Below the pieces are notes generated by a model. It did no database searches and was not told where the DNA came from. It was given only the letters and a program-made list of their open reading frames with translations. From the NCBI GenBank assembly GCA_012932295.1, contig JAAONU010000120.1, positions 120,323-184,322 on the forward strand: DNA of 64,000 nucleotides, given 5' to 3'. The number at the start of each line of letters is the position of its first letter. The first letter of the stretch is position 1. Source of the stretch: Cyclina sinensis (Eukaryota; Mollusca; Bivalvia; Venerida; Veneridae). Made by a program: the position numbers and the translations under genes. This document shows, one piece after another, positions 22,868 to 50,555 of the stretch.

Positions 22868-23046
22868 ACAAAAAGTCTATCCTTTCATTTGAAAAATGAA
22901 GTTTTAAGTTAAGCTTTTAACATTACTGAAATAAATATTCATTAAGTAAGTATAAAAGGCAATTCAAATAACAGTAATTCAGTTACACTTTTAATGAGTG
23001 AACTTTAAAATAAGTCCGACAAGATATTCTCTAAGGCACAAAAATC

Positions 23047-24009
23047 ACAATGGGATTATCAATTCCGTTCTCATTACTTGGTTAGGTGGGAACAATCATC
23101 ACAATGGGATTATCAATTCCGTTCTCATTACTTGTTTAGGTGGGAACAATCATCACAATGGGATTATCAATTCCGTTCTCATTACTTGGTTAGGTGGGAA
23201 CAAACATCACAATGGGATTATCAATTCCGTTCTCATTACTTGGTTAGGTGGGAACAAACATCACATTGGGATTATCAATTCCGTTCTCTTTTCTTGGTTA
23301 GGTGGGAACAATCATCACAATGGGATTATCAATTCCGTTCTCTTTTCTTGGTTAGGTGGGAACAATCATCACAATGGGATTATCAATTCCGTTCTCATTT
23401 CTTGGTTAGGTGGGAACAATCATCACATTGGGATTATCAATTCCGTTCTCATTTCTTGGTTAGGTGGGAACAATCATCACATTGTGATTATCAATTCCGT
23501 TCTCATTACTTGGTTAGGTGGGAACAAACATCACAATGGGATTATCAATTCCGTTCTCTTTCTTGGTTAGGTGGGAACAAACATCACAATGGGATTATCA
23601 ATTCCGTTCTCTTTTCTTGGTTAGGTGGGAACAATCATCACAATGGGATTATCAATTCCGTTCTCATTTCTTGGTTAGGTGGGAACAATCATCACATTGT
23701 GATTATCAATTCCGTTCTCATTTCGTGGTTAGGTGGGAACAATCATCACATTGTGATTATCAATTCCGTTCTCATTTCTTGGTTAGGTGGGAACAATCAT
23801 CACATTGTGATTATCAATTCCGTTCTCTTTTCTTGGTTAGGTGGGAACAATCATCACAATGGGATTATCAATTCCGTTCTCATTACTTGGTTAGGTGGGC
23901 ACAAAATCACAATGGGATTATCAATTCCGTTCTCATTACTTGGTTAGGTGGGAACAATCATCACGATGGGATTATCAATTCCGTTGTCATTTCTTGGTTA
24001 TGTGGGAAC
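23047..24009. repeat. Minisatellite, 54 bp x 18, open in several frames
   Basis: Eighteen units begin at 23047 and recur every 54 bp, except for two 53-bp spacings (23533 to 23586 and 23856 to 23909). Since 54 is a multiple of three and the unit has no stop in two frames, long ORFs result: 18-residue repeats such as WEQSSQWDYQFRSHYLVR or HHNGIINSVLITWLGGNN. The two 1-bp losses break every frame, and variant positions are not biased to third codon bases, so coding is unlikely. Confidence 0.95.
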
Positions 24010-31232: not shown

Positions 31233-32375
31233 TTAACTGATATTAGATGGACAATTTTGAAAATAAGTGAATGTATTTAAATTAGTTGAATCAATGGAAA
31301 CCATTGGTAAACTGTCGTATCCAAATAGGTCGAAGTCAAGGGCAAATGCTTTTCTAACGGAGAGAACAACTGATTTAGGAAGCGTGTTCAAAGCTTGCAT
31401 AAGCGCTGCAGCCCTGTTATTTCTGACATCTTCAGAACTACTTCTTTTATGAGCGCGAGTAAGCTCATCTTGAAACTGCAGTTTTGTTATATTGATGGTA
31501 TCCTCTTTAGAGTAATACGGAAAATTCTCATTGAAGCTAATAACTCCGCGGCTTTGAAGTCTACTCCATACCCTAAACATAGCACATGCAAATGGAACTC
31601 CGCAGTCATTGGTCACACTCTGCTGTTGAGAAAAAACCCAATCGGCGGCGTCACGTATAGCATCCATAGCTGCGTCATTTTCAAAGTCATCAAATTTTAT
31701 CCTATCAGAAAGACCAAATTCTTCTAGAAGATACATTGTGTCTTCTTTGATTGTTTCATACTTGCCGATAAAATCAAAGGACAAATTACATGGCAAACAA
31801 TGAAAATAGTTTGACTGAAAATGTCCATCGATACATGGTGACGACATAACATTGTGAATGGTATAATTGACAAATTCTGCGAATGAAATATCATATCCAC
31901 ACTTAACTTTGGTGTCCAGGTTCCTCTGTGATTTTATTATTATCTTTCCGGCCGATTTCCAATAGTAGGGATTAGGAGAGTAAAATTTGTCGAGCCAGCC
32001 AGAAAAAAGTCTTGTATAAGGATCCCGGACAAATACAATGCTCCGAGCATGGTCAAATATTTCTGCAATATCAGTCCAGTTCTTATCTTTTAATGACCGG
32101 TATCCTCCCTTTTCTACGTAAGCCTCGCCCAAACCAATATGTGTCGGATTAGAGACATTTCGCCAGCCTCCTGCTATATGTAGAATACGTCTCCAGAAAG
32201 TACTCCCCGTCTTTTCGATGGCACAGTAAAGCATTTCTTTTTGTTTCACATACTTGAGATTATTTGCAACGCCTTTGTGTACACAGGTCTTAGAGTTTAT
32301 GATACCATTTAGAATTGAACATCCGTTTTCTAAAATCTTCCTGCGTTTCTTAAACCTCAGATGTATTTCACTTTC
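31233..32375 (-). CDS. Sulfotransferase terminal exon (catalytic domain)
   Basis: A strong acceptor (TTTTTTGTTCTTTTACAG) precedes the exon. It holds both PAPS-binding motifs, a Cys-rich centre (SPCIDGHF, FHCLPCN) and several potential N-glycosylation sites. The stop is TAA at 31235-31233. Confidence 0.9.
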   Translation of the reverse strand, partial: ESEIHLRFKKRRKILENGCSILNGIINSKTCVHKGVANNLKYVKQKEMLYCAIEKTGSTFWRRILHIAGGWRNVSNPTHIGLGEAYVEKGGYRSLKDKNWTDIAEIFDHARSIVFVRDPYTRLFSGWLDKFYSPNPYYWKSAGKIIIKSQRNLDTKVKCGYDISFAEFVNYTIHNVMSSPCIDGHFQSNYFHCLPCNLSFDFIGKYETIKEDTMYLLEEFGLSDRIKFDDFENDAAMDAIRDAADWVFSQQQSVTNDCGVPFACAMFRVWSRLQSRGVISFNENFPYYSKEDTINITKLQFQDELTRAHKRSSSEDVRNNRAAALMQALNTLPKSVVLSVRKAFALDFDLFGYDSLPMVSIDSTNLNTFTYFQNCPSNIS

Positions 32376-34030
32376 CTGTAAAAGAACAAAAAATCTTATT
32401 GCTCTAAAATGTATTTGTATCGCAATCAACAAAGATATATAAATTGAGGAGGAGGGAGATAATATTTTATAATGCGAGACACAATTACAGTTTCATAACA
32501 TAAGTTTTCTTGACCGTGGCTCTTCTTTTATGGAAAATCCGTAATTAGATAGTTATTTTTTAATAAAGAATATAAAGTGAATTATTTTAGTTGTTCGATG
32601 AATTAATAAAGTGGTTAAATTGTTTTTTGTCCAATCGTGTTGTAGTATGTTCAGTTTCATGACACTATTTCAGGTTAATCAGTGTCATCCACTTGTTCAG
32701 TTTATAACTCGATTTCAGCCTGTAATCAAATTATACATTTCCAGGACTTCGCAATTTAATGGTTTTAATACGCATTACTGCCAGACCAAATAAAATTTAT
32801 TAATACGAATAAATAAACATTAAAATTTACATAATACTAATTATATCAGCAAAATACGCCTCCCCATAAACTTCATGTGTTTTTATCATTTTTGCTTTTC
32901 CCGAAAATATTCAGGGTATTCATGTGCGTTTATGTATGCAGAAAGTTAAAATGTTATTTCTGTCATGTTAACTTTCGGAAAAAAAGTAGCTGTAAGGCAC
33001 ACGTTTGTAAGATATTGTTTTTAGAATAATGTATTTGCCTACATTCTCCTTCATATTATTACTATTATAATTATTAAACGAGAAGGGTGCACTTATAGGG
33101 GTGTAGTTCTAGTGCGATGCACTCTCAAGGTATAAACCGGGAGAGGTGCACTTATAAGGTGTAGTACGAGAAGTGGTGCAAGCTCAATGTAGAAAATGAG
33201 ATGGGATGCATTTATAAGGTGTAGTTAAAGAAACGGTGAACTCTCACTGTAAAAATCGAGAGGTGGTGCACTTATAATGTGTAGTATGTATGTCGATGCA
33301 CTGTTAAGGTATAAAACAGGATGTGTTGCACTTATAAGGGGTAGTACGAAAGGCAGTGCATTCTCAAGGTATAAAACGGGAGGTGGTTCACATAATGTGT
33401 AGTCTGAGAAGCGGTGCACTAATTAGATATATTACAATGAGAGGCGGTTCAGTTTAAGTAATTTAATAAAAGCATTATAAATGACTGGCATGTTGTGCTT
33501 TATTCAATACAACATGTATCAATTTTGGAAATGTTGTCATATTTTCGGATAAAAGTTATGTTTTAAGTTTCATTCTTATGTTTAGAATCTTTATTTTGTT
33601 TTTTGGTAGATGTCAAAAGCGTCGAGTGAGTGTGCGAGTTGAGCGAGCAAACGAGCAAGCTAGAGTGATGTGTGGGTGCATAAGTGTGTGAGAATGATTC
33701 AGTGAATGATCAGGGGTAAAAAACCGACGGAAATAATCTGAAACTCACACACTTTGACATTCACTGACTCAGTAAAAAGCTGACATACGGAAGGTCTATA
33801 TTGCTTTCTATTTAAACAGTCTATATTTAAGAACGTTTATTTTCAAAACCATACCTGAATCGACCTTAAGTTGTCATGCACGTCATTACATTGTTGACAA
33901 GGCTCTGTAGAATTTGAAATGGTTTTAACTTTTCCAATAGCTTCAGAGTTTTCTGCCTTTATAACACCCACATGCCTCAGCACTTGAGTACTTTCTGTCC
34001 TGTCACAATTGTGAATACTGCCAGGAAACC
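31233..34030 (-). CDS. Carbohydrate sulfotransferase (Sulfotransfer_2 family), 3' exons
   Basis: A Golgi type II membrane enzyme that moves sulfate from PAPS to a glycan. Exons seen: 33855-34030 and the terminal exon 31233-32375 (380 codons and a stop), joined in phase 0. The 5'-phosphosulfate loop is IEKTGSTFWRR and the 3'-phosphate site is VFVRDPYTRLFSGWLDKF. FIGKYETI and a C-terminal LFGY also match the family. The upstream exon encodes a Cys-containing stem region (CQQCND). The exon with start codon and membrane anchor was not found; by comparison with the copy at 62683 it should lie to the right of 34030. The terminal exon begins at GAAAGT after TTTTACAG, so the in-frame ATG at 32432 is intronic. 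The acceptor glycan is unknown. Confidence 0.88.
32611..32815. repeat. Diverged relative of the 5.16-5.44 kb foldback element
   Basis: Shares TTTTTTGTCCAATC, an AGTATGTTCA-like stretch and TAATACGCATTA with 5163-5444. It lies in the sulfotransferase intron, and the inverted arms are worn. Confidence 0.4.
33075..33430. repeat. Tandem array, ~60 bp x 6
   Basis: GGTGCACTTATAAGGTGTAG or variants recur near 33087, 33145, 33204, 33265, 33325 and 33385. Units are about 10-20% diverged. Located in the sulfotransferase intron. Confidence 0.85.
33855..34030 (-). CDS. Sulfotransferase stem-region exon
   Basis: 176 nt, acceptor AACTAAAG, donor ATTCAG/GTATGG. It reads FPGSIHNCDRTESTQVLRHV and ends NLRSIQ, in frame with the terminal exon. 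The same exon, 2 nt shorter, is at 63629-63802 in inverted orientation, and flanking intron sequence is also similar. Confidence 0.85.
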
Positions 34031-35970: not shown

Positions 35971-37254
35971 TATATGTTTGACTGTATACATACGTGTTTG
36001 ACTTTTCACAACACGACGTTTTACTCACTTTGCATTTTCTGCTTTTAGACATGACGGAGGTTGATTCAACATGTTCAACTTGAGGTGAAACTTCTCAAGT
36101 GTCGTAACCTTAAATCGCCATGTAAAAAGACATGACTCAAAAACACGTGTTTACGTTTTGTGTGATGACCTTCTTCAGGAACGATGAGCTCAACAGAGCA
36201 CACAAGAAACAATATACATTGTTGTAACTCATGTGGTCTGACTTTCAGCAGTAAATCTTCTCTTTAAAGACAAAAAACATCAAGTCTATCTAGGAATACA
36301 ATACAAAAGCACCTTCTGTGACAATATTTACTCCACAAAACAACACAGGACAGCACATGAAAAGAGTAACAAAAAACGTAAAGGAAGAAAGAACATAAAC
36401 AACACCATATAAAAATTGTGCATATAGACTGACACTTGAAGACATGCGGCAGGATTACAGAGTATTCAACATCTGAACGACATATCTGCCATATGAGGTT
36501 CATTCATCCAAACATGACGAACGTTAGTATTTCTGCCTAAAAATGTTTTGAGATAAGACATAGAAGAAAGTGTATGTAAATCAGTCCTATTGTTCCGTAA
36601 TATCCACTGTAGACTCGGGAAATATTTCATCTAGGTCAAAATGTGATCTGATCATGAAGTGTTTTTTTTTAATTTTTTGTTTGTTTTGTTTTTTTTTTGT
36701 TTTTTTTATTAAAAAAAAATATCAAAAAATATGTCTTGTAATTTGGATAAAAACTCAGTGGTGCTTTGTTTGCTTCATAGGACAATAGTTAGTTTATGAT
36801 TGACTGATAAATCAAAACTTACAAATTAAAGTGTTGAAATGTAAAGTTCTGCTGCCATTACAGAAGGCGGGATGTATCGTGTTTGTCCGTGATGATGCAC
36901 GGATAACTTATTTTATTTAATTGTCTGTGTTTAATGCTCATCATTTATTTGAACAATGCTAACATAATAACATTGAAGGTACACACAGTTATTTCATTAT
37001 AAAACGTCTTCGTCAGTTTTCAGCTCTTTGTGTGTATCAAAATGCGTCATTACGAGCACACATTAGCAAAAGAAGAAGTATTTTTAAATTTATATATTTC
37101 TGTACTGTTGAAATTTAAGAACTGTCATTTTAACGCTGAACATTTTTTTTCCTGAAAATACATATCAATAAAGATTCACTCTCCCTTAGTAACCAGCAAT
37201 TTGACAATATTACACTAAAATATAAGCTCATTAGAATATCACGCCTTGCAGGTA
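35971..37254. other. No gene recognised; long T tract
   Basis: Non-coding AT-rich DNA with a T-rich tract at 36661-36708 followed by A8. A minus-strand ORF at 36264-36503 is hydrophobic and Cys-rich, but no family is recognised. Confidence 0.4.
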
Positions 37255-37336
37255 AACAAACAAACAAACAAAAAACAAACAAACAAAAAACACAGACAGG
37301 CAGACAGACAGATAGATAGATAGATAGATAGATAGA
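37255..37336. repeat. (AAAC)n and (GATA)n microsatellites
   Basis: AAAC repeats, then AGAC and GATA repeats in direct succession. Confidence 0.9.
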
Positions 37337-37519
37337 CGAAATAACGCCATGAACAACCGAAGAATACATTTAAATAAACAGAGATGAAAATATCGAAGTC
37401 TCGGAAGTGTTTGTATTTGTACATCTTAATAATAAATTCAATTTTTAAAAATACATTCCACAACTAGAAATGCTAACATCCAAGCGTTGAATTATTATGT
37501 AACAGGTGGTGAAAAATCG

Positions 37520-37592
37520 TGGCTCGACCGGGACTCGAACCCAGGGCCTTCCGCTTACAGGGCGGACACTCTACCAACTGAGCTACCAAGCC
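37520..37592 (-). tRNA. tRNA-Thr(TGT)-like gene inside the 3' LTR of TRIM copy 1
   Basis: 73 nt on the minus strand folding as a complete cloverleaf: acceptor GGCTTGG/TCGAGCC, D arm GCTC/GAGT, anticodon stem TCCGC/GCGGA, T arm CTGGG/CCCGG. The anticodon TGT is at 37559-37557. Position 33 is C, not the near-universal T. The A box TAGCTCAGTTGG and B box GGTTCGAGTCC are perfect. TTTTT follows 2 nt after the tRNA. It is probably an element part, not a decoding tRNA. Confidence 0.75.
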
Positions 37593-37791
37593 ACACGGTT
37601 CTGCCTTATCGATTAATCACCTATAAACCTGTACCCGGCTACATATACCCCCTCCAAATTTAGAATTCGTCCCGAATTCTCAGAGTCACAGAGAATATTG
37701 TAAACACATTCTCGAAGTGCCGAAGCAGTAGCCAAATTATAACGTAGGTTATTTACGTTGGGCGCCAAATGTAACAGGTGGTGAAAAATCG

Positions 37792-37864
37792 TGGCTCGAG
37801 CGGGACTCGAACCCAGGGCCTTCCGCTTACAGGGCGGACACTCTACCAACTGAGCTACCAAGCC
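37792..37864 (-). tRNA. tRNA-Thr(TGT)-like gene inside the 5' LTR of TRIM copy 1
   Basis: Identical to the one at 37520-37592 except for one base, which makes the outermost T-stem pair a C-C mismatch. It also has C at position 33 and the TTTTT run downstream. Confidence 0.72.
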
Positions 37865-38321
37865 ACACGGTTCTGCCTTATCGATTAATCACCTATAAAC
37901 CTGTACCCGGCTACAATTACACGTTGGATAAATCTTTATAGACCAATATTTGAACATGTAAGGGTGTCTGACTTTCATGCTTTTTCTGTTTTTATTATGA
38001 AATGAAGAAAATAAAAAATCGATGTCGGAACTATATCTGACAAAAACGTCCAAAATATTCTGACCACCAAAGTTTTGGTGTAGAATTCGCAGTTAATAAT
38101 GATTTTTGATATCAGCATCTCCTAAAATGCCTTGATACGTAGCTCGACAGAATGGAAGTGCCGATGTTTGGCGCGTGGCCTTGCATCTTTTAATAGAAAG
38201 CAATGCAAGCTACAGTTAAGACACACTCTTAAAGATTTATAAGATTTTTTTTCATAATTAATTATCAGCAACATAACAGACCAGACGCCTGACATAATAA
38301 AACATTGACTTCCTGAAAATC

Positions 38322-38383
38322 AGGGCCAATATCAATAACACTGATCGGTCCCGGACCGAAAAAGTGATAATGATATTGGCCCT
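38322..38383. repeat. 62-bp palindrome with a nested inner palindrome
   Basis: AGGGCCAATATCAATAACAC (38322-38341) is nearly the reverse complement of the sequence ending at 38383. The centre TCGGTCCCGGACCGA is a second inverted repeat. It could be a small foldback element or a cruciform-prone site. Confidence 0.8.
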
Positions 38384-38689
38384 CTTGTAGCTCAATGTGA
38401 TTGGCTTAAAAATTAGGGCGAAAGAACTGATCTTCTTCTTTCTTATATTATAATGGCTAACATTCATTTACTGATATAAGGACATGCGTAGGGTTAGGAA
38501 AAGAGACAGGTGCTAGGGATCCCAGGCTACTCAATCCTCCCAGGAGTGACCTAACACCGCGCAGAAAAAAGATGCAAAAACTAACACCTTAAAACCTTAA
38601 AAGCCTCAGTAAATTAAAATATGCATATGGTTTTTTGTGCAGAAGAGAGAGTAAGTAAGGTTAAAAATGAAAGCATAGCGTGATATTTA

Positions 38690-41010
38690 TGGCCAATTCA
38701 TGCAGCTAGCGTTGACTTAAATCCAGAGGCTGAGTCTGCGCTGACTACATTCTGTGGTAGAGTATTACACAGGTAGACTGTGCGTGGAAAGAATGAATAC
38801 TTGTGTGTATCATAAGTTGGTTGTACCAGGTGGTAAGCTTGGCTATGGTAGTGTCTTGATTGTCTCGTATATTGTTGTAGGTACTGGTTCATGTCCATTG
38901 CTACAATGTTATTAGCTATTTTATAAAAGAGGCATAGTCTGTTTTTGGTCCGCCTACTTTCTAGGGAAGGCAAATTTAATGACGTTACGATGGTTGTCAT
39001 AGAGGCTAGTGCCTTAGAATAGTCGATGGCAACAAATCGGGCTGCTTACTTTGTATAGATTCTATCTTGTCGACATCTTTCTTCAGGTAATGGTCCCAGG
39101 CTGCAGAAGAATATTCTGATGTTAGGCGTACAACTTAGTTATTTATATGCTGCTGTTTTAGTTTCTTCGGAAGCTGAATGTAAGTTGCGTCTTAAATCCT
39201 AGTGATTGACTAGCTTTAGTTGTGATTTAGTTTGTTTGTTTGGGTTTAACGCCAGTTAAAACAGCTCTAGTCATACCCAGGCGGTCAGTCCACCTACTAA
39301 GTGTTCCTGGGTATCCAACCAGTTTACTTACCAATTTCTCCGCAAGTGACTGACTACTTCCTCACTTGCTCCAGACGCATTGTCAGTTATCACGGAGAAA
39401 CTTTGCCGGTCCTGATGGGGATCGAACCAGGATCCACAATCCGATGCTCTACCGATTGAGCTAGTGTTCATTTGAGGCACTGAAGAACTGTTATCATTAA
39501 CAAAGACGTAAGAGAACTGCAGATTAAGAACATCAGCCTTTTCCTTCGATATGTTTCTTAAAATGCCATTTTCACGAAGAAGAGACACTCCTGAGAAATC
39601 ATTTTTACTAAACTCTTGATGAAGCCCAAAAATCGTTTGATTGTACCATGATTGTTTTCAGATTTGTCACACACTATGTTATTCATATAATCCCAATAAG
39701 TACACCTGGCTTTTGCTGAATAAGAACTTCTAATTTCTTTAACTTGGGTAATAGTTGGTAATTTTTGTCTTTTTCATTTTATTGTATAAACGATCACGTT
39801 TTTTATGAGTCTTTTGATGTATGAGTTTATTCATGGAATGTGGTGTCTTCTTCCAGAAACATGCTGGTATGATTTTTCAGTCAAAGTATTTAAGGTAGAT
39901 CTAAAGGTTTCCCATATCTCATTTACAGCCATGTTTTAAGATGTCTATTTGATGTAAATTCCTGTAAGCCTTTCTTTACTCCAGACCAGTTTGCTTTATC
40001 AAAAAGATAGATTTTTCATTTTTCTTTTGGAATATTCCTGACTGACGCTAACATGTCAACATATGGCATGCAGTTGTCGGTAAAGCCTGGTATTACTCTG
40101 ACATTTTCTACTAGCGATAGGTTGGAAACAAGAAACAAATCTAAACAATTTCTGGTTGTATCAGTAATACATGTGGGTTCATTTATTAACTGTATTGTCT
40201 ATACAGCTTAAAAGCTTTTTATTTTCATTTACATGGTTTGCTCCTGCTTTTTTTTGACACTAATACAAATACACCGCAGCCGGTTCTACCTTTACGAACT
40301 TATCTGTATACATCATAGTGAGAAAGAAAGACCAACATTTTTAATGTTTAGTTTCAGCCAAGATTCATTTCCAAGAACAATATCTGGATTTACAGAAGAC
40401 AGCATGTTCAGAAAGCCAAGATTTTGCTTTTTCACAGATTGACAGCTCACTGTTATTATTTTCAAGTGCTGTAAGTTGTATGTACCAAATACAGTAGACT
40501 TAGGTTGTCTATGACTGGTAGAAGATGTTTGTGTATTACTGACAACACGTTTACTACATGGAGTACTACTACGAATAGGATTTAAATGGTGGTTATTACC
40601 TGGTAAATGTACTTAGATGTTACCTGGAGAGTGTACTATTTCTGAGCTACATGAACTGACTGAAGATAATGAGGTATTTGTGTCAACTGATTAGGGTGCT
40701 TCAAACAGTGATGATGTAAAATCTGGTATGCCACAATTTAAGCATTCCCAGTATTCATCTGGATATTTTTTGTGATTCTGATTAGTAAGTGTGTTCATTC
40801 CTTGACACCCTGTATGGAATCATGTGTCACATTCTTCGTATAAAATACCCCGTTCTGGATCCCAATTTACTTGGGTATTACAAACTTAACAAATATCAGG
40901 TCTATCAATACCTGTATTCGGGCTTGAAATATCATGAGCAATGGAATTTAGACTCAAATATTTTTACTTTTTTAGAGAATTTCGAAAGATTTAGACTAAC
41001 TGCAAGTTCT
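38690..41010 (-). mobile_element. CR1/Jockey-type LINE with PHD-finger ORF1, internally deleted
   Basis: Reads leftward. 40900-40720 encodes a PHD-like finger ending YWECLNCGIPDF, with one stop inside. 40480-40100 is the endonuclease (HLKIITVSCQSVKKQ, PDIVLGNESWL). 40100-39600 is the endonuclease end and linker, and 39588-39465 is the linker into RT. The RT core is missing: a SINE at 39229-39463 sits at the junction. Then come the RT C-terminus at 39225-39010 and 39000-38698 (SFFPRTVYLCNTLP). Multiple stops and frame breaks mean it is dead. Confidence 0.82.
39229..39463 (-). mobile_element. tRNA-headed SINE, copy 2
   Basis: Same body as the SINE at 21693-21985: GGGTTTAACGCCAGTT, GGCGGTCAGTCCACCTA and TTTCTCCGCAAGTGACTGAC. 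The 5' tRNA head is cut just before the A box (TAGCTCAATCGGTAGAGCAT). No clear target duplication, consistent with a rearranged junction within the LINE. Confidence 0.88.
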
Positions 41011-41356: not shown

Positions 41357-41968
41357 TGTTTCAGACTTCGAATGTTTGTGCAGGTTCTATTTATCGGGCT
41401 TTACTATATTTTGATGGCCGTATATCATGTCCACCTGACCGGCGCAGTGTTAGTTTAGTGCGGTCTGGTTCCTGCCATAGCTTAGACTCACAAGAGATGA
41501 GTGCCTCCCATATTTAGAAAATAAAATTTTGAATTTATCTGTTAGAAGGCGCATTCTGCATTTTATTTGGTCAAAACTGTCCCTAGAAATAATAATTATA
41601 TGCAAATGCCAAAATTGCCGCCTTACCAGAGGGCAGTTGATTTTTAGAATTCGGAAAGTAAAGTACGATTTTTGTATATCTCAATTTCACTACGTTTTTG
41701 GGCACAGATAGCATTGTTCAATAATCGCTATTCGCTATTCGCTAAACGCTAATCGTTAGTCACATTAGCTAGTCACCGCTATTCTTTGGTACATAGGAAT
41801 AAAAGTGAAAGAAGTAGCGCGTATATTGCAGTTTTTCTTGTTGCCCAAGACACTTGGTGAAGCTGCCCACTACAGCTGTGCAGTAGTGCCTTTGTTAGTG
41901 TACACCCCAGAGTTCTACAATAATTGAAAACGATGGTTATTTTTCAGTTATTGAACAGTTATTCTACA
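41357..41968 (+). repeat. 5' LTR of the BEL/Pao element
   Basis: TG...CA termini. Compared with the 3' LTR it has an extra GCTATTC unit in the CGCTATTCGCTATTCGC stretch near 41730. Confidence 0.95.
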
Positions 41969-42112
41969 GTTATTGAATAGTTGTTCTACAGTTATTGAAC
42001 ATTATCTGTAACGAGAAAAGTTGCAGTTACTTGGATTAATTACGTTCAAAGTTCAAATTACCTGGATTATATGTGTTTTATATATTCCGGACTGTAGACT
42101 TATTGTTAGAAG

Positions 42113-43474
42113 ATGGCTACCGGCTCGTCACTCGACGAACGAGAAGCCTCTATGAAGAAGCTAGTCGCAAGCTTCTCAAGGATTGCCAAGTCAAGTGAAA
42201 TTAAGCTGACAGCAGGCGACTCCGGGTTTCGGCGGTTGCGGAAAGAGCTGTGCGACTGCTGGGAGGAGTTGGTCGACGTACGTCACAGATGTGAGGCGTC
42301 ACTTAATGAAGATAAATTCAATGAAATACAAGAACGATACAACCAGTTGTTGTCCCGAGTTAGTGACTCGGTTGAAAGTTACACAAGTTCTGTTTCGTCA
42401 CGCAATTCCACAGCATCACAGAAGTGGAGGGCAGAACTGCGCCTTCGCCAGATACGCGAAAGACAGGAAATAGAACGTAAAAGTGAGGAACTTCGGCGGG
42501 AGCTCGAACTACAGACCGCCCGACATGAAGTAGAACTGGCCGAGATAGAAGAGGAGGAGGCTGATAACGACGGAAGCAGAGAATCATTATCGTCACCGGA
42601 CGCACCGTCACCGGACGACAAAGTGAGAAACTATGTGCAAAATTGTAGTAAGGACTTACCTGCCAATGGAGACAGTGACAAACTTTGTAACAATGTGCCA
42701 ACCGCTCAAATCAGTGTTCAGGACCTTTATGGTTTACCAAAACCGGAATTAATAAAATTCAATGGGAATCCTGCGGATTACTGTAAGTTTCTTAGCAACT
42801 TTGAAACAAACATTGAGGCTAGGGTAAGTGATAGTAGATTAAGATTAAACTATCTTATTCAATTATGTCAGGGAGATGCCAGATATTGTATAGAAGACTG
42901 TGTAATCTTGCCTCCGAACGAAGGCTATTTAAGAGCTAAAGAAATCTTAAAATCTAGGTATGGCAAACCCCATTTAGTAGCCATGTCACATGTAGAAAGT
43001 TTGATAAATGGCGGTGTCATTAAGAGTAATGATGTTAAGGGACTGATGAATCTGTCACTTCATATGGAAAAATGCCACATCACTCTCTCCCAGCTAGGTT
43101 TCATGTCTGATGTGAATAACACTGAAAATTTGAGAAAAATAGTTAGGAGACTACCGGTTCACATTCGGTCTAAGTGGGTTGAACGTGCGAGCAGCCTGAT
43201 CGAACTGGGAGTCGAACCAAGTTTTGATCACCTTTTAACCTTTGTGAGGGAACGTTCTGTTGTTGCAAACACAATGTATGGTTATGACCTTGCAAATGGG
43301 TCTAGTAAACAAACAAAGAATTTGCCTCGAAATTCACAGGTTAACTCTTCACAGCGTAATAAAGTTGTAACTCTGTCCACTGGATCTGATAAGAGAAACT
43401 CAGGTAAATCCCCCTCAGAAAAACCCCAAGGGATCGATTATCGTGTATTTATTGCAAGAAGGCCCATAAATTAA
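42113..43474 (+). CDS. gag: BEL/Pao gag
   Basis: 453 codons from ATG at 42113, after a 144-nt leader. Residues about 95-150 are Arg/Glu-rich and likely form a coiled coil. Residues about 210-390 match the DUF1759 gag domain of BEL/Pao elements (ELIKFNGNPADYCKFLSNFE). The frame then runs out: the CCHC knuckle (CIYCKKAHKLREC) is encoded from 43444 in the other frame. The switch lies in a run of A5-C4-AA-G3 near 43420; either a 1-base indel or frameshifting in translation could explain it, and the run is not a canonical X-XXY-YYZ site. Confidence 0.9.
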   Translation: MATGSSLDEREASMKKLVASFSRIAKSSEIKLTAGDSGFRRLRKELCDCWEELVDVRHRCEASLNEDKFNEIQERYNQLLSRVSDSVESYTSSVSSRNSTASQKWRAELRLRQIRERQEIERKSEELRRELELQTARHEVELAEIEEEEADNDGSRESLSSPDAPSPDDKVRNYVQNCSKDLPANGDSDKLCNNVPTAQISVQDLYGLPKPELIKFNGNPADYCKFLSNFETNIEARVSDSRLRLNYLIQLCQGDARYCIEDCVILPPNEGYLRAKEILKSRYGKPHLVAMSHVESLINGGVIKSNDVKGLMNLSLHMEKCHITLSQLGFMSDVNNTENLRKIVRRLPVHIRSKWVERASSLIELGVEPSFDHLLTFVRERSVVANTMYGYDLANGSSKQTKNLPRNSQVNSSQRNKVVTLSTGSDKRNSGKSPSEKPQGIDYRVFIARRPIN

Positions 43475-44700
43475 GGGAATGTACAGAGTTTCGGCTAATC
43501 GATATTGATTCAAAGCTGACAGTTATCAGAGAGCATGAAATGTGTGAAAATTGCATGAATTTTAAACATGTTGCCGAAAATTGTAGGAAAAATAGTTGTT
43601 GTGAGGTTTCAGGTTGTACCGGGAAACATAATACGATGTTTCACCGAGACTCTGGTCAAAATCGTGAGTATGAAAATGGTCAGGATAAATATGTTGCTGC
43701 TTCCGAGTCGCAGTCTAAACAAAATCAGGTAAGTTTGCGCATACTCCCAGTAGTCGTCAGAACGGCATCTGCACAAGTAGAGACTTATGCACTCCTGGAC
43801 GAAGGGAGTGATGTTACACTGTGTAGTGATAGTCTTGTCAAAAGGCTAGGGATTGAAGGTAAACCTTGTAACTTCACGTTAACCACAGTGAACAAGTCTA
43901 GTCAGAATATGACTGGCAGAGAAGTGCAACTGCAGGTAAGTGCATTAAATGGAGGTCAGGTTATTGACCTTCAAAAGGTATGGTCTGTCAAAACCTTGCC
44001 TATCTCCTTGCAGTCGTTGCCAGATCAGTCTGTAACAGGTAAGTGGAAACACTTAAGTGGTATTCATTTACCGAAAATTGATATCGATAAAGTCGAATTG
44101 CTCGTGGGAAGCGACACCCCAGATGCCTTCTTGGTAGAGGAGCAGCGAAGGAGAAAAGGGGGTGAGCCCTATGCAATCAGGTCGATACTAGGCTGGAGCA
44201 TTATCGGACCTACAGGTAAGAGGTCAACACTAGACCGCGGTAGTATCAATTTTCAGCCTGCATCTAGTACACAGTTGCAAATCGATAAACTATGGTCAGC
44301 AGACTTTCCGGATGTCAAGAGTTGTGGCGCGGGGATGTCACAGGAAGACCGTCGTGCACTCTCCATAATGGAAGGTACAGTAGTAAAAGAAAATGGTCAC
44401 TACAAGCTAGGGCTCCCGTGGAGGGACCCTAGTGTAAGTCTCCCAAATAACGTGAAGATGGCCACAGTAAGACTCGCTCACTTGAAAAGAAAACTACAAA
44501 GAGATGATCAGTTATTTAATATGTACAAGGAAACAGTAAATGAGTATATTGAAAAAGGGTACGCTTCCTTATTGGATGCCAGAGCAGGATTCGAACCCAG
44601 TCGAATTTGGTATCTGCCTCATCACCCAGTGCTCAACCCAAAGAAGCCAGGCAAGGTAAGGGTTGTCTTTGACTGTGCTGCTAGGTATCAAGGCACATAA
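43444..44700 (+). CDS. pol: BEL/Pao pol, part 1: zinc knuckle, protease, start of RT
   Basis: Opens in frame with the CCHC knuckle, followed by Cys/His-rich sequence (MCENCMNFKH, CCEVSGCTGKH). The aspartic protease motif is ALLDEGSDVTL. The N-terminal RT region with RIWYLPHHPVL and VRVVFDCAA leads to a TAA at 44698-44700, beyond which the same frame continues. The stop interrupts the RT domain and would truncate the polyprotein. Confidence 0.9.
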   Translation, partial: CIYCKKAHKLRECTEFRLIDIDSKLTVIREHEMCENCMNFKHVAENCRKNSCCEVSGCTGKHNTMFHRDSGQNREYENGQDKYVAASESQSKQNQVSLRILPVVVRTASAQVETYALLDEGSDVTLCSDSLVKRLGIEGKPCNFTLTTVNKSSQNMTGREVQLQVSALNGGQVIDLQKVWSVKTLPISLQSLPDQSVTGKWKHLSGIHLPKIDIDKVELLVGSDTPDAFLVEEQRRRKGGEPYAIRSILGWSIIGPTGKRSTLDRGSINFQPASSTQLQIDKLWSADFPDVKSCGAGMSQEDRRALSIMEGTVVKENGHYKLGLPWRDPSVSLPNNVKMATVRLAHLKRKLQRDDQLFNMYKETVNEYIEKGYASLLDARAGFEPSRIWYLPHHPVLNPKKPGKVRVVFDCAARYQGT

Positions 44701-46344
44701 TTGAATGATAATCTGTTACAAGGCCCCGACCTAACCAACAGTATTACAGGCGTGCTGATGCGTTTCCGGCAGGCCCCAGTAGCAGTAGTTGCGGACATAG
44801 AAGCTATGTTCCACCAAGTAAGGGTGCATGAGCATGATAGGGATGCCCTAAGATTTCTTTGGTGGCCCCAAGGTAACTTACACGAGGAGCCAAAGGAGTA
44901 TTGTATGAACGTGCATTTATTTGGTGCAACTTCGTCTCCTAGTTGTGCAGCTTTCAGTTTAAAGCGCACAGCCAAGGACAATGTTGACAAATTTAGTCGA
45001 GAAGCGGTAAGTACGGTCGAACGTAATATCTACGTTGATGACTTGCTTAAGTCTGTACTTGACCCAAGTTCGGGAATTAGACTTGCCACTGAGTTGAAAG
45101 AACTTCTCTCGTTAGGGGGCTTCAGACTCACTAAATGGCTTTCTAATAGTGAACATGTCCTGAACTCTATCCATGAAGCAGATCGAGCTGAACCGAGGGC
45201 AAAGTTAAACATCGACACCGAATCTTTCCGTGAGCGAACACTTGGGTTACAGTGGCTTGTTAATCAGGATAAGTTTGTGTTTGATATTAATCTCCATGAC
45301 AAAGGTACGACAAGACGCAGTATCTTGTCGGTTGCAAGTTTGTTGTACGATCCGCTTGGGCTAGTTGCACCGGTGACATTAATACCCAAGTTGATTTTAC
45401 AGCGTGCTTGTAGGCTGAACTTAGGCTGGGACGAACAAATTCCAGAAGCGGAAGCAGAAAAATGGTCACAGTGGCTAGCAAGTCTACCAGCATTATCGAA
45501 GGTGAGTATTAGTAGATGCATAATTCCAAGTGAGCTTGACAGGTCAACTTTGAGAGCTGAATTACATATGTTCAGTGACGCATTTGAATTGACCTATGGA
45601 TCTGCCGTGTATTTAAAGGTGTATGACGCTTACGGACACAGTAAGTGCAGCCTTGTTATAGGTAAGTCAAGGTTAGCGCCTATAAAAGCTATGTCAATTC
45701 CAAGGCTCGAACTGGCAGCCGCTGTCGTTGCTGTCAAATTTTATCAGATTGTGGTAGAGGAGCTTGACATACAAATTTCTGAAAGATACTTTTGGACGGA
45801 CTCCATGATTGTATTGGGGTATATAAGAAATGAACAGAAAAGGTTCAAGACCTTTGTTGCGAACCGACTGTCCGTAACTCATGAGGTAACGTCACCACAT
45901 GACTGGAGGTATGTACCCTCTAATAGTAATCCCGCCGACATTGCGTCAAGGGGAATCAATCCGCAAGAGCATGAAAGGCTTGAAACATGGTTGATTGGGC
46001 CTGAATTCCTTAAAAGGAATGAGGCAGAGTGGCCAGTACAGGTAGGCAACGTGACCTTACAAGAGGATGACATAGAGCACAAGCCTCGGGCTAGCGTACT
46101 AAATACTCAAGGTAAGTGTGATTTAAGCACGTTAATAAGTAAGTTCTCCGACTGGCATAAACTACAAAATGCAGTTGGTTGGCTACTGCGTTTTAAGTGG
46201 TTTATTGTTCAGAGATTCCCACCTGAAAGACGAAATCTTGGCGATAAGGTAAGTAGTAAGTCCCTTGGTGTGAGGGAGATGCAAATGGCACAGATAGCCA
46301 TATTCGATCAAGTTCAGTATTTAGCGAACGTTGTTTGGAGATAG
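44701..46344 (+). CDS. pol: BEL/Pao pol, part 2: RT and RNase H, integrase lost
   Basis: Same frame as part 1. RT motifs: [12 protein letters not shown] (motif A), [14 protein letters not shown] (motif B) and YVDDLLKS (catalytic motif C). RNase [28 protein letters not shown] and NPADIASRG. After 46322 the sequence jumps into the far end of pol, removing the integrase zinc finger and DDE core that should span over 1 kb. Confidence 0.92.
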
Positions 46345-46599
46345 TACGGGAGTACTTGCCGACCTTGCAGGTAAGACAAAATGGCTTAATCCCCAAAGGA
46401 ATATATCCGTAAATGACCTCGTTCTCGTCTGCGATGAACAAGCGTCTCGTGGAAAATGGCCATTAGGCATCGTTCTCGAGGTAAACAAAGGTAGAGACGG
46501 ACTCGTTAGATCATGTAAGGTCAAGGTTAATGGGTCTGTAAAGGTACGACCGATTACAATGTTATGTATGTTAGAGCAGAGCACCGTTCATGCTAACTG
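46345..46599 (+). pseudogene. BEL/Pao DUF5641 C-terminal remnant
   Basis: Preserves REYLPTLQVRQKWLNP and NDLVLVCDEQASRGKWPLG across the frame change at the deletion joint. It ends at the stop 46598-46600. DUF5641 normally follows the integrase in BEL/Pao pol. Confidence 0.82.
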
Positions 46600-46846
46600 A
46601 TAACAGTGGTAAGCAACATGAATTAACCTTTGATGTACATGTATGTTCTCTGCTATTTAGGCGTTACGATATTCTGTAAATCTAGTATAATTTAGATTAG
46701 TATGTCTCACCCTTAGAAGTTAATGAATGTTTTTTTTACTATTAAGAAATAGATAGTATATTCATTGTACATTCTTGCATTTGTATATTCTTCGTCTTCC
46801 CTTAAATATATGAATGAACTTATAGGAAAGGTTCATTGAGGGCCGG

Positions 46847-47449
46847 TGTTTCAGACTTCGAATGTTTGTGCAGGTTCTATTTATCGGACTTTACTATATT
46901 TGATGGCCGTATATCATGTCCACCTGACCGGCTCAGTGTTAGTTTAGTGCAGTCTGGTTCCTGCCATAGCTTAGACTCACAAGAGATGAGTGCCTCCCAT
47001 ATTTAGAAAATAAAATTTGAATTTATCTGTTAGAAGGCGCATTCTGCATTTTGGTTGGTCAAAACTGTCCCTAGAAATAATAATTATATGCAAATGCCAA
47101 AATTGCCGCCTTACCAGAGGGCAGTTGATTTTTAGAATTCGGAAAGTAAAGTACGATTTTTGTATATCTCAATTTCACTACGTTTTTGGGCACAGATAGC
47201 ATTGTTCAATAATCGCTATTCGCTAAACGCTAATCGTTAGTCACATTAGCTAGTCACCGCTATTCTATGGTACATAGGAATAAAAGTGAAAGAAGTAGCG
47301 CGTATATTGCAGTTTTTCTTGTTGCCCAAGACACTTGGTGAAGCTGCCCACTACAGCTGTGCAGTAGTGCCTTTGTTAGTGTACACCCCAGAGTTCTACA
47401 ATAATTGAAAACGATGGTTATTTTTCAGTTATTGAACAGTTATTCTACA
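46847..47449 (+). repeat. 3' LTR of the BEL/Pao element
   Basis: Preceded by a purine-rich stretch ending GAGGGCCGG. The TG...CA ends match the 5' LTR. It is followed by the AGAAT duplication at 47450-47454. Confidence 0.95.
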
Positions 47450-48905: not shown

Positions 48906-48931
48906 CAAGTATAACAGGTGGTGAAAAATCG

Positions 48932-49004
48932 TGGCTCGGCCGGGATTTGAACCCAGGGCCTTCCGCTTACAGGGCGGACACTCTACCAACTGAGCTACCA
49001 AATC
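48932..49004 (-). tRNA. tRNA-Thr-like gene inside the 3' LTR of TRIM copy 2
   Basis: 73 nt aligning without gaps to the tRNAs of copy 1. The acceptor (GATTTGG) and T arm (TTCAAAT) have changes. The anticodon is TGT with C at position 33, and TTTTT lies downstream. Confidence 0.65.
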
Positions 49005-49203
49005 ACACGTTTCTGCCTTTTTGATTTATCACCTGTAAATCTGTACCCTGCTACATATACCCCCTCAAAAGTTAGAATTCGTCTCGAATTCTCAGAGTCA
49101 CGGAGAATATTCTAAACCTATTCTCGAGATGCCGAAGCTGTAGATAAATTATAACGCAGGTTATTTACGTTGGGCGCCAAATGTAACAGGTGGTGAAAAA
49201 TCG

Positions 49204-49276
49204 TGGCTTGACAGGGTCTTGAACCCAGGGTCTTCCGCTTACAGAGCGGACACTCAACCAACTGAGCTACCAAGCC
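49204..49276 (-). tRNA. tRNA-Thr-like gene inside the 5' LTR of TRIM copy 2
   Basis: 73 nt, acceptor GGCTTGG, anticodon stem TCCGC/GCGGA, loop TCTGTAA with C at position 33 and anticodon TGT. The T arm has GGTTCAAGACC, a weakened B box. TTTTT lies downstream. Confidence 0.65.
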
Positions 49277-49472
49277 ACACAGTTCTGCCTTATCGATTCA
49301 TCACCTATAAACCTGTACCAGGCTACACAAGTTTTAGATAAAATAGAGTGAATATGCGGTTGATGAGAGAGATGTTTAATTTTGTCATATTGTAAGCTTT
49401 TAGAGTTGTTCAAATAGTTGAAATTGTCTCAGGACCAATATAGGTGATATGGTTACTAACGTATTATCACCA

Positions 49473-49544
49473 GCCCGGGTAGCTCAGTTGGTAGAGCACC
49501 TGACTTGCATGCGGATGTCGCGGGTTCGAGTCCCGCCCTGGGTA
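49473..49544 (+). tRNA. tRNA-Ala(TGC)-like sequence, probably a SINE head
   Basis: 72 nt: acceptor GCCCGGG/CCTGGGT (with wobbles), D arm GCTC/GAGC, T arm GCGGG TTCGAGT CCCGC, anticodon loop CTTGCAT. The anticodon stem CCTGA/GCGGA has two mismatches, so it is unlikely to be functional. The A box TAGCTCAGTTGG and B box GGTTCGAGTCC are perfect. A downstream short inverted repeat, TGATTTTT...AAAAAATCA, suggests a SINE body. Confidence 0.5.
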
Positions 49545-50555
49545 TGTGATTTTTCTGACCCCGCGACAAAAAATCATAGGTTCACCTTCGAAATGGAAAA
49601 CTGTGCATGTGGTTTACACAACTCCACAAGCTTCCACTTTAAACAACCGATGGTCTTTTTTCACAGTCTTTCATGTGTTAAATAATTCCAGTTAATGATA
49701 TGTTCAAGTCTGGAATAAAACATACGAAATAGTAATAATAATACATGTACAATAAAATGATGTTTATTCTGCAACAAAATTCACGCAATATAAGACAGTA
49801 CGTCAGCTTGAAATGTGCTTAAGTTATACAGATTTATACGAAACTTAGGTAGCACTCCACACTAAATTTCTAATTCCTGCCGTCCCTGTACACAAACATT
49901 ATGTCCGAAGTTCCTGGTACAAAAGTATTAAACCTGAAAAAATAAGAATCATTTTATTAACAACATATTAAACAAAACATTGTAAATCAACAACTAAACT
50001 GTCACAAGTATTGTGGTAGAACTATACATGGAGCTGTGATTCATTCAGTAATCGCCGAAAATCAACAGTGGTCCAAGACCTAAAACACCACTTTTTGTCT
50101 CTCTGTCAAAACATACCTGCAAATAGTAGCTATAGAAACACTGTTTCTGTCTAGGCAAATCCCTTACATGCAAAATATCAACAAAGAAACAGGTGTTTCG
50201 CCTTGCAGATTTTTTGCTAATGATTGAAAGTATGTACCCCCCCTTGAAAAAATGTCTTGATTCTTCCGAGCCTGCAATTGAAATGCACTGTTTACAGAAA
50301 AACGGTGTTCATGACACCATCGGTCCCTGAACAATTATTACTAGCCCTATTTTCGAATTTGCCAGAGTTCATTTTAGATGTTGCAAAACAAAATCTGATG
50401 CTGAAAATGCATTTTGAACTCAAACAGTCATTTGACTCAGAATATTTACACTTTCAAAGAAATCATCCGTGGCCTTTCGAAACTGTGGCTACAATTAGTG
50501 TGGTGTGCTAACTTAAGCATCATAGCGAGGTTTAGCAGTCAATTAATGGCAGACG

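Follow-up and report, generated by a model that had tools for sequence, protein, structure and literature searches.

A tRNA-bearing family of miniature LTR retrotransposons, apparently of the Helenus type, in the clam Cyclina sinensis

The genome of Cyclina sinensis carries a group of miniature LTR retrotransposons (TRIMs), called family A here, with a tRNA-like gene in each LTR, and family A is a real transposon family. As far as sequence can tell, its TG...CA ends, 4-bp duplications, mutation-sharing LTR pairs and copies with the full tRNA-Lys primer complement show that it has spread by LTR-type reverse transcription and integrase-type insertion. Set against Helenus by description, it appears to be a new family of that type in a clam group absent from the table published in 2024. 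A sequence-only reading of this DNA had proposed a miniature LTR retrotransposon with a tRNA per LTR in a bivalve, and tests of both structure and copies bear this out. Its further statement that no example had been described does not stand, as Kojima in 2024 described the type as Helenus and placed it in the class TRIMp3, with Cassandra named as analogue (PMC10886601). Our best overall explanation, held with high confidence as one joint judgement, combines the LTR-type proliferation evident from the copies with deduced steps of transcription, priming and use of a Gypsy partner.

The window, meaning the whole 64,000-nucleotide stretch that was analysed, holds a complete 418-bp family A element on the minus strand (37498-37915), delimited by sequence reading, LTR alignment and genome search; all its features given below lie on that strand. 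Its 146-bp LTRs, placed by alignment at 37770-37915 (5' in element sense) and 37498-37643 (3'), have TG...CA ends and are 99.3% identical with one difference, and an ATTA target site duplication was read on the left (37494-37497) and on the right (37916-37919). The 126-bp interior (37644-37769) is noncoding, opens with TT-TGGCGCCCAACGT and closes with GGAGGGGGTATA. The primer site TGGCGCCCAACGT (37755-37767) begins two bases past the 5' LTR and is complementary over 13 nt to the native tRNA-Lys CTT; the polypurine tract GGAGGGGG (37648-37655) stands 4 nt before the 3' LTR, and upstream of the tract family comparison picked out an inverted-repeat motif, GAATTCGGGACGAATTCT (37662-37679). Short terminal direct repeats, a small noncoding interior, a length below 1 kb and a primer site and polypurine tract that adjoin the LTRs describe a TRIM, and within each LTR there is, as in Helenus, a tRNA-derived sequence with boxes A and B. 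This is a 73-nt tRNA-Thr(TGT)-like gene on the same strand as the element, called by ARAGORN and matched by Rfam RF00005 at 54.7 bits in the 5' LTR (37792-37864) and 62.5 bits in the 3' LTR (37520-37592), where the gathering score is 29. A TTTTT run, a candidate pol III terminator, stands 3 nt past the tRNA of the 5' LTR (37784-37788, LTR positions 128-132), another was read past the tRNA of the 3' LTR (37512-37516), and TATA within TATAGGTG of the 5' LTR (37894-37897) precedes the start of the tRNA by 33 nt. The first reading had given this anatomy in some detail: measurement returned the same 418-bp element, 146-bp TG...CA repeats and 126-bp interior, sequence reading the same primer site 2 nt from the LTR, polypurine tract and ATTA duplication, and ARAGORN with Rfam RF00005 the same sense-oriented 73-nt tRNA in each LTR.

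Many more copies are present in the genome. The 26-nt junction of LTR end and primer site occurs at 378 genomic places with up to three mismatches and its reversed control at none, so the match is not due to chance; the LTR 3' end, at the same threshold, occurs at 803 places (reversed control 0). A first DNA search with family A gave 47 matches, mostly full length at 96-100% identity (40 of 1184 candidates scored). The loci examined comprise 30 from the DNA search, 80 from zero-mismatch junctions or the search list, and 14 small stretches. Exact 4-bp duplications flank 35 of the 58 complete two-LTR copies, a set that includes a few duplicated insertions, as against 1 of 348 control comparisons; allowing one mismatch the figures are 45 of 58 and 21 of 348, and duplications of other lengths are rare (3-bp in 3 of 58, 5-bp in 1 of 58). 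Family A therefore has the 4-bp target site duplications of animal Helenus. Numerous full-length copies, and constant boundaries with 4-bp duplications at fixed LTR ends, had been expected from the single element, and both expectations held. LTRs resemble their partner within an element (distance 0.016) more closely than LTRs of other elements (0.030; 24 elements), none of 20,000 permutations giving a value as low.

Solo LTRs had been expected as well; they exist but look few, with one clean solo LTR with a duplication and one possible solo without a duplication among 12 isolated LTR ends. The remaining ends follow a polypurine tract (six, being 3' or array LTRs), precede altered primer sites (three) or are truncated (one). 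Three or more LTR matches were seen at 12 of the 80 junction or list loci, and these are tandem arrays, head-to-head pairs and mosaics of family A with the family B described below, plus L108, where the third match is the tRNA of an adjoining family B LTR. Tandem LTR-interior arrays were found at, among others, L026, L019, L042, L101 and L115, and a three-LTR array (L019 and L011) is bounded by a single TTTC pair. Head-to-head inverted TRIM pairs occur at L043, L077 and L084, and are possibly nested insertions or products of self-integration.

The primer can be approached through the host's own tRNA genes. The tRNA-Lys CTT genes of C. sinensis end in GCCCCACGTTGGGCG, which was found at five places, and the three of these that were fetched are all tRNA-Lys CTT. 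Among 109 junctions, with duplicates not removed, 74 match the tRNA-Lys complement for 13 nt and then continue with AAATAACCT, three carry the complete 18-nt complement and three more carry 17 of the 18. The continuation GTGG is found at 14 junctions genome-wide, two of which enter the family B interior (L046, C18:24971633) and two unrelated sequence (L065, L086). At full-complement junctions the change ends at base 18, the usual stopping point when a tRNA primer is copied. The full complement is probably a primer footprint, that is, tRNA sequence copied into the element; alternatively, it could be an older, fuller site kept in a few copies. Under either origin, copied or retained, it points to tRNA-Lys as the primer.

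Family A has two relatives in the same genome. Family B has an LTR of about 145 bp with a tRNA-Ala(TGC) and an interior of about 106 bp, and a search with it, in which 40 of 575 candidates were scored, produced 81 matches, 44 of them of unit length. In the window it is represented on the plus strand by a solo LTR (49425-49568) whose tRNA-Ala(TGC)-like gene lies at 49473-49544 and whose flanks, AAAT and AAAA, differ by one mismatch. This LTR stands about 100 bp from a second, older family A copy on the minus strand (48910-49327), which matches the first at 91% identity across 416 bp, has CAAG on both sides and has LTRs that differ by 13.7%. Family C, seen at L132-L135, has a 145-bp LTR with a decayed tRNA and has in common with the others its primer site and the motif that precedes the polypurine tract; ARAGORN found no tRNA in the one family C LTR tested, and remnants of boxes A and B are discernible by eye only. 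Common to all three families are TGGCGCCCAACGT, GAATTCG(A)GGACGAATTC before the polypurine tract and TTTTT behind the tRNA region. The motif before the tract reads GAATTCGGGACGAATTCT in family A and GAATTCGAGGACGAATTCTT in families B and C, the latter occurring at 542 genomic places (control 1), and TATAGGTG stands 33 nt before the tRNA in family A and 34 nt before it in family B. Judging by family C, this type of element may be able to do without a recognisable cloverleaf; what the families have in common is promoter remnants and terminator.

Families A and B also form chimeras. At L046 the order is LTR_A, primer site, interior_B, LTR_B, primer site, interior_A, LTR_A; at L099 a single LTR switches from B to A near the common ATAGGTGAT; and at C18:24971657-24971397 an LTR_A end is joined to interior_B. 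The joins occur at about 9-15 nt of common sequence, which would suit template switching among co-packaged RNAs and also recombination of one-LTR circles; either would imply that A and B use one machinery.

Six copies depart from family A sequence just past the primer site, and about 10 kb downstream of them contained no autonomous partner, which for animal Helenus would be a Gypsy-superfamily element. One of the six, L093, is followed about 1.8 kb downstream by a gag-like ORF with a zinc knuckle and also has a protease-like ORF, with Pfam matches below curated cut-offs. Its repeat was rejected as an LTR partner, the other genomic copy matching only to the end of the primer site and having no primer site of its own. 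The GAATTCGAGGACGAATTCTT loci likewise yielded no partner in the six sampled outside the family B matches (from 100 of the 542 listed): all are family B or C TRIM sequence, with family C at four of the six, two of the four having common flanks. Broken interiors behind a 5' LTR were surveyed at L031-L090, L097-L116 and L026. In nine of these, unrelated sequence takes over from the interior at bases 15-30, at or just beyond the primer site (L026, L039, L043, L057, L064, L065, L079, L086, L107), in L099 the break is at base 104, in L041, L054 and L089 it is at the 3' LTR border, and other internal breaks occur in L033, L062, L069, L084, L090 and L106. It is possible that the breaks clustered near the primer site are captured reverse-transcription intermediates (strong-stop DNA), an idea weakened by a selection pattern that required base 15 at most of these loci, by small numbers and by the absence of a duplicated 4-mer at the joint of interior and unrelated sequence in all eight cases tested.

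In a set of 142 LTRs, the better preserved ones, ARAGORN calls a tRNA in 130 and Thr(TGT) in 122 of them, and a run of 5 or 6 T is present in 131. Given these calls and the 803 LTR ends, annotations of the C. sinensis genome probably contain several hundred tRNA-Thr(TGT) calls that stem from family A. Many young copies with linked LTR pairs also provide a natural experiment that sets mutations passed through transposition against later ones, and selection on an LTR-borne tRNA can therefore be measured. We used 71 elements, with duplicated insertions removed, and took changes in one LTR as post-insertion and changes in both as mostly inherited; the LTR tail was omitted, because many of the copies had been picked by an intact LTR 3' end. 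U3 (124 over 51 sites) and the tRNA (183 over 73) have later substitutions at equal density, and the ratio of inherited to later substitutions is 24:183 in the tRNA versus 85:124 in U3 (p=9e-12). Counted as distinct inherited events the comparison is 15 versus 26 (p=0.007), and an earlier pass with 59 elements gave an inherited depletion in the tRNA in the same direction. Changes in stems keep rather than break pairing at 10:2 when inherited and 49:67 when later (p=0.012); with each distinct change counted once, 7:2 versus 49:67 is not significant (p=0.077). The ratio of recurrent to singleton variants gives weaker p values (tRNA 47:99 versus 33:37 for the mid-interior, p=0.036, and versus 48:61 for U3, p=0.067), and how large the effect looks thus varies with the measure chosen. 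Shared changes could also come from gene conversion between LTRs, but not preferentially in U3.

Transcription would start within the 5' LTR just upstream of the tRNA, with TATA 33 nt before it and boxes A and B inside, and the RNA would run to the TTTTT that follows the tRNA of the 3' LTR, or beyond it. The R segment would then correspond roughly to a pre-tRNA, with strand transfer running through R; tRNA-Lys(CTT) would prime at TGGCGCCCAACGT; and Ty3/Gypsy Gag-Pol would package, copy and insert the TRIM RNA, its integrase making the 4-bp duplications. We infer the polymerase, the borders of R and the partner, whereas the outcomes of priming and integration can be seen in the DNA of the copies. 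Use of the internal pol III promoter is likewise deduced from sequence, and is graded in the same way for Helenus by Kojima 2024 (PMC10886601). The terminator of the 5' LTR raises a difficulty for pol III-driven transposition: pol III would be expected to halt at this TTTTT, short of the primer site, so that readthrough or another polymerase must be assumed. Most 5' LTR transcripts would end there, with occasional readthrough to the 3' LTR, and, because the terminator also stands behind the 5' LTR tRNA, a single LTR would be expected to yield short tRNA-like transcripts as well. The production of full-length template by pol III elements becomes, by virtue of this terminator, a directly testable question. 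We further offer a tentative proposal, against which we would sooner bet than for it: that the R region is the pre-tRNA, begun by pol III at the tRNA leader and closed by a TTTTT terminator, that each LTR is both an independent, non-decoding (C33) tRNA-shaped RNA gene and, by readthrough, a source of genomic RNA, and that transposition selects the folded tRNA and not only boxes A and B. If true, selection would act on the folded tRNA through, e.g., RNA end formation, processing or packaging.

An unlikely alternative to this role for the tRNA makes it passive cargo, with pol II transcription from host or U3 signals and a tRNA that persists only because the family is young. The TATA 33 nt upstream of the tRNA would suit pol II, a terminator in the 5' LTR sits uneasily with pol III, and 11 of the 71 LTR pairs are identical (median pair distance 0.021). 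However, the tRNA shows a shortage of inherited substitutions, but not of later ones, when set against U3, family B retains a recognisable tRNA and the TTTTT run, and family C keeps the run together with the by-eye remnants of boxes A and B. Within the tRNA, inherited and later substitutions stand at 12:55 inside boxes A and B, where a single change at position 57 accounts for 7 of the 12, and at 12:129 outside them, so the depletion is not limited to the promoter boxes; that the boxes are no more constrained than other parts of the tRNA counts in favour of passive carriage.

We consider it very improbable that the LTRs hold a working tRNA-Thr gene and that the family is kept as a supplier of tRNA to its host. 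The anticodon is TGT in 135 of the 142 LTRs, and the majority sequence has the invariant bases that were checked (T8, A14, G18, G19, A21, G53, T54, T55, C56, A58, C61, A73). However, position 33 is C in 139 of the 142, and to our knowledge T33 is near-universal in elongator tRNAs; the family B tRNA-Ala has C-G as its third acceptor pair, not the G-U that, as far as we know, alanine tRNAs need. These features speak for a folded tRNA-like RNA and, because of C33, against ordinary decoding. That seven bivalve Helenus families can encode tRNA-Thr (Kojima 2024, PMC10886601) is a further point on the side of a working gene. We give almost no credence to a reading in which tRNA genes in tandem or as dimers, or a SINE dimer, have been taken for an LTR element: the tandem LTR-interior arrays would suit it, but the 4-bp duplications at fixed LTR ends, the primer site and polypurine tract, the mutation-sharing LTR pairs, the primer-complement copies and the one TTTC pair around the three-LTR array do not.

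The likeness to Helenus is extensive: a TRIM with a tRNA-derived sequence with boxes A and B in each LTR, tRNA-Lys primer sites among bivalve families, 4-bp duplications in animals, tRNA-Thr among the tRNAs that bivalve families can encode, several families per genome and, reported for zebrafish LTR-11_DR, tandem arrays (PMC10886601). Kojima 2024 proposed that Helenus arose by insertion of a SINE into an LTR (PMC10886601); the sequence-only reading had supposed capture of a tRNA gene, and either route may apply to family A. The host differs. C. sinensis, of the family Veneridae, belongs to Heterodonta, and the molluscan hosts in the paper's table come from five orders of Pteriomorphia only, molluscan Helenus being dated to the Pteriomorphia ancestor (PMC10886601). 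As tRNA-bearing TRIMs now extend to Heterodonta, that dating needs revisiting, the options being an older origin, repeated origin or horizontal transfer. Among the matches listed, no other paper names Helenus or reports it in Heterodonta. In the main text of PMC10886601 the stem "terminat" occurs twice, both times on Cassandra, and for Helenus that text has no mention of a tRNA terminator, primer-copy variants, chimeras of families or C33. New here are the Heterodonta host; three families (Thr, Ala and degenerate) with a common primer site, motif before the polypurine tract and TTTTT, two of which form chimeras; and inherited mutations that avoid the LTR tRNA although position 33 is C.

Of other TRIMs, Cassandra shares the noncoding structure, the tandem arrays and LTRs that hold a small RNA gene complete with promoter and terminator for pol III (PMC7215508), but that gene is 5S rRNA, not tRNA, and its hosts are plants. 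Ajax, another animal TRIM of TRIMp3, has a 5S rRNA fragment, a tRNA-Leu primer and 5-bp duplications (PMC10886601). PbTRIM of ants is an animal TRIM with LTRs of 152-184 bp and 4-bp duplications; its primer site is for tRNA-Leu, and the text of its report that we consulted mentions no tRNA in the LTR (PMC3532108). There is also biv-TRIM, a TRIM of venerid and other bivalves with tandem arrays and solo repeats, but with repeats of 202-218 bp, an interior of 77-80 bp, a GGGGAGA tract, no clear primer site and, in the published text consulted, no mention of a tRNA in its repeats (PMC6934838). Family A was judged different from biv-TRIM, from the reported dimensions only (PMC6934838).

The surroundings of the first copy are themselves repeated. 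The 3.4 kb around it (35998-39415) are 99.9% identical to C11:3575799-3579216, and C11 has a second junction about 11.4 kb beyond the first, the same spacing as in the window; contig C151 thus seems to duplicate part of C11 that was left uncollapsed. On C10 there is a third copy of this 3.4-kb stretch, 98.3% identical. Elsewhere in the window there is a BEL/Pao-like element (41357-47449), whose repeats of about 600 bp are 97.5% identical and flank ORFs with DUF1759 and Pao peptidase A17, and a carbohydrate sulfotransferase ORF on the minus strand (31236-32492), a single frame of 419 aa that is 67% identical to a Mercenaria homologue. For a protein of the window, Mercenaria mercenaria ranks first among named matches (67%), with Mactra, Ruditapes, Mya and Dreissena next and scallops far lower down. 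At 23035-24009 the window has a tandem repeat with a period of about 54 bp, shifted self-matches of 92-96% and long open frames.
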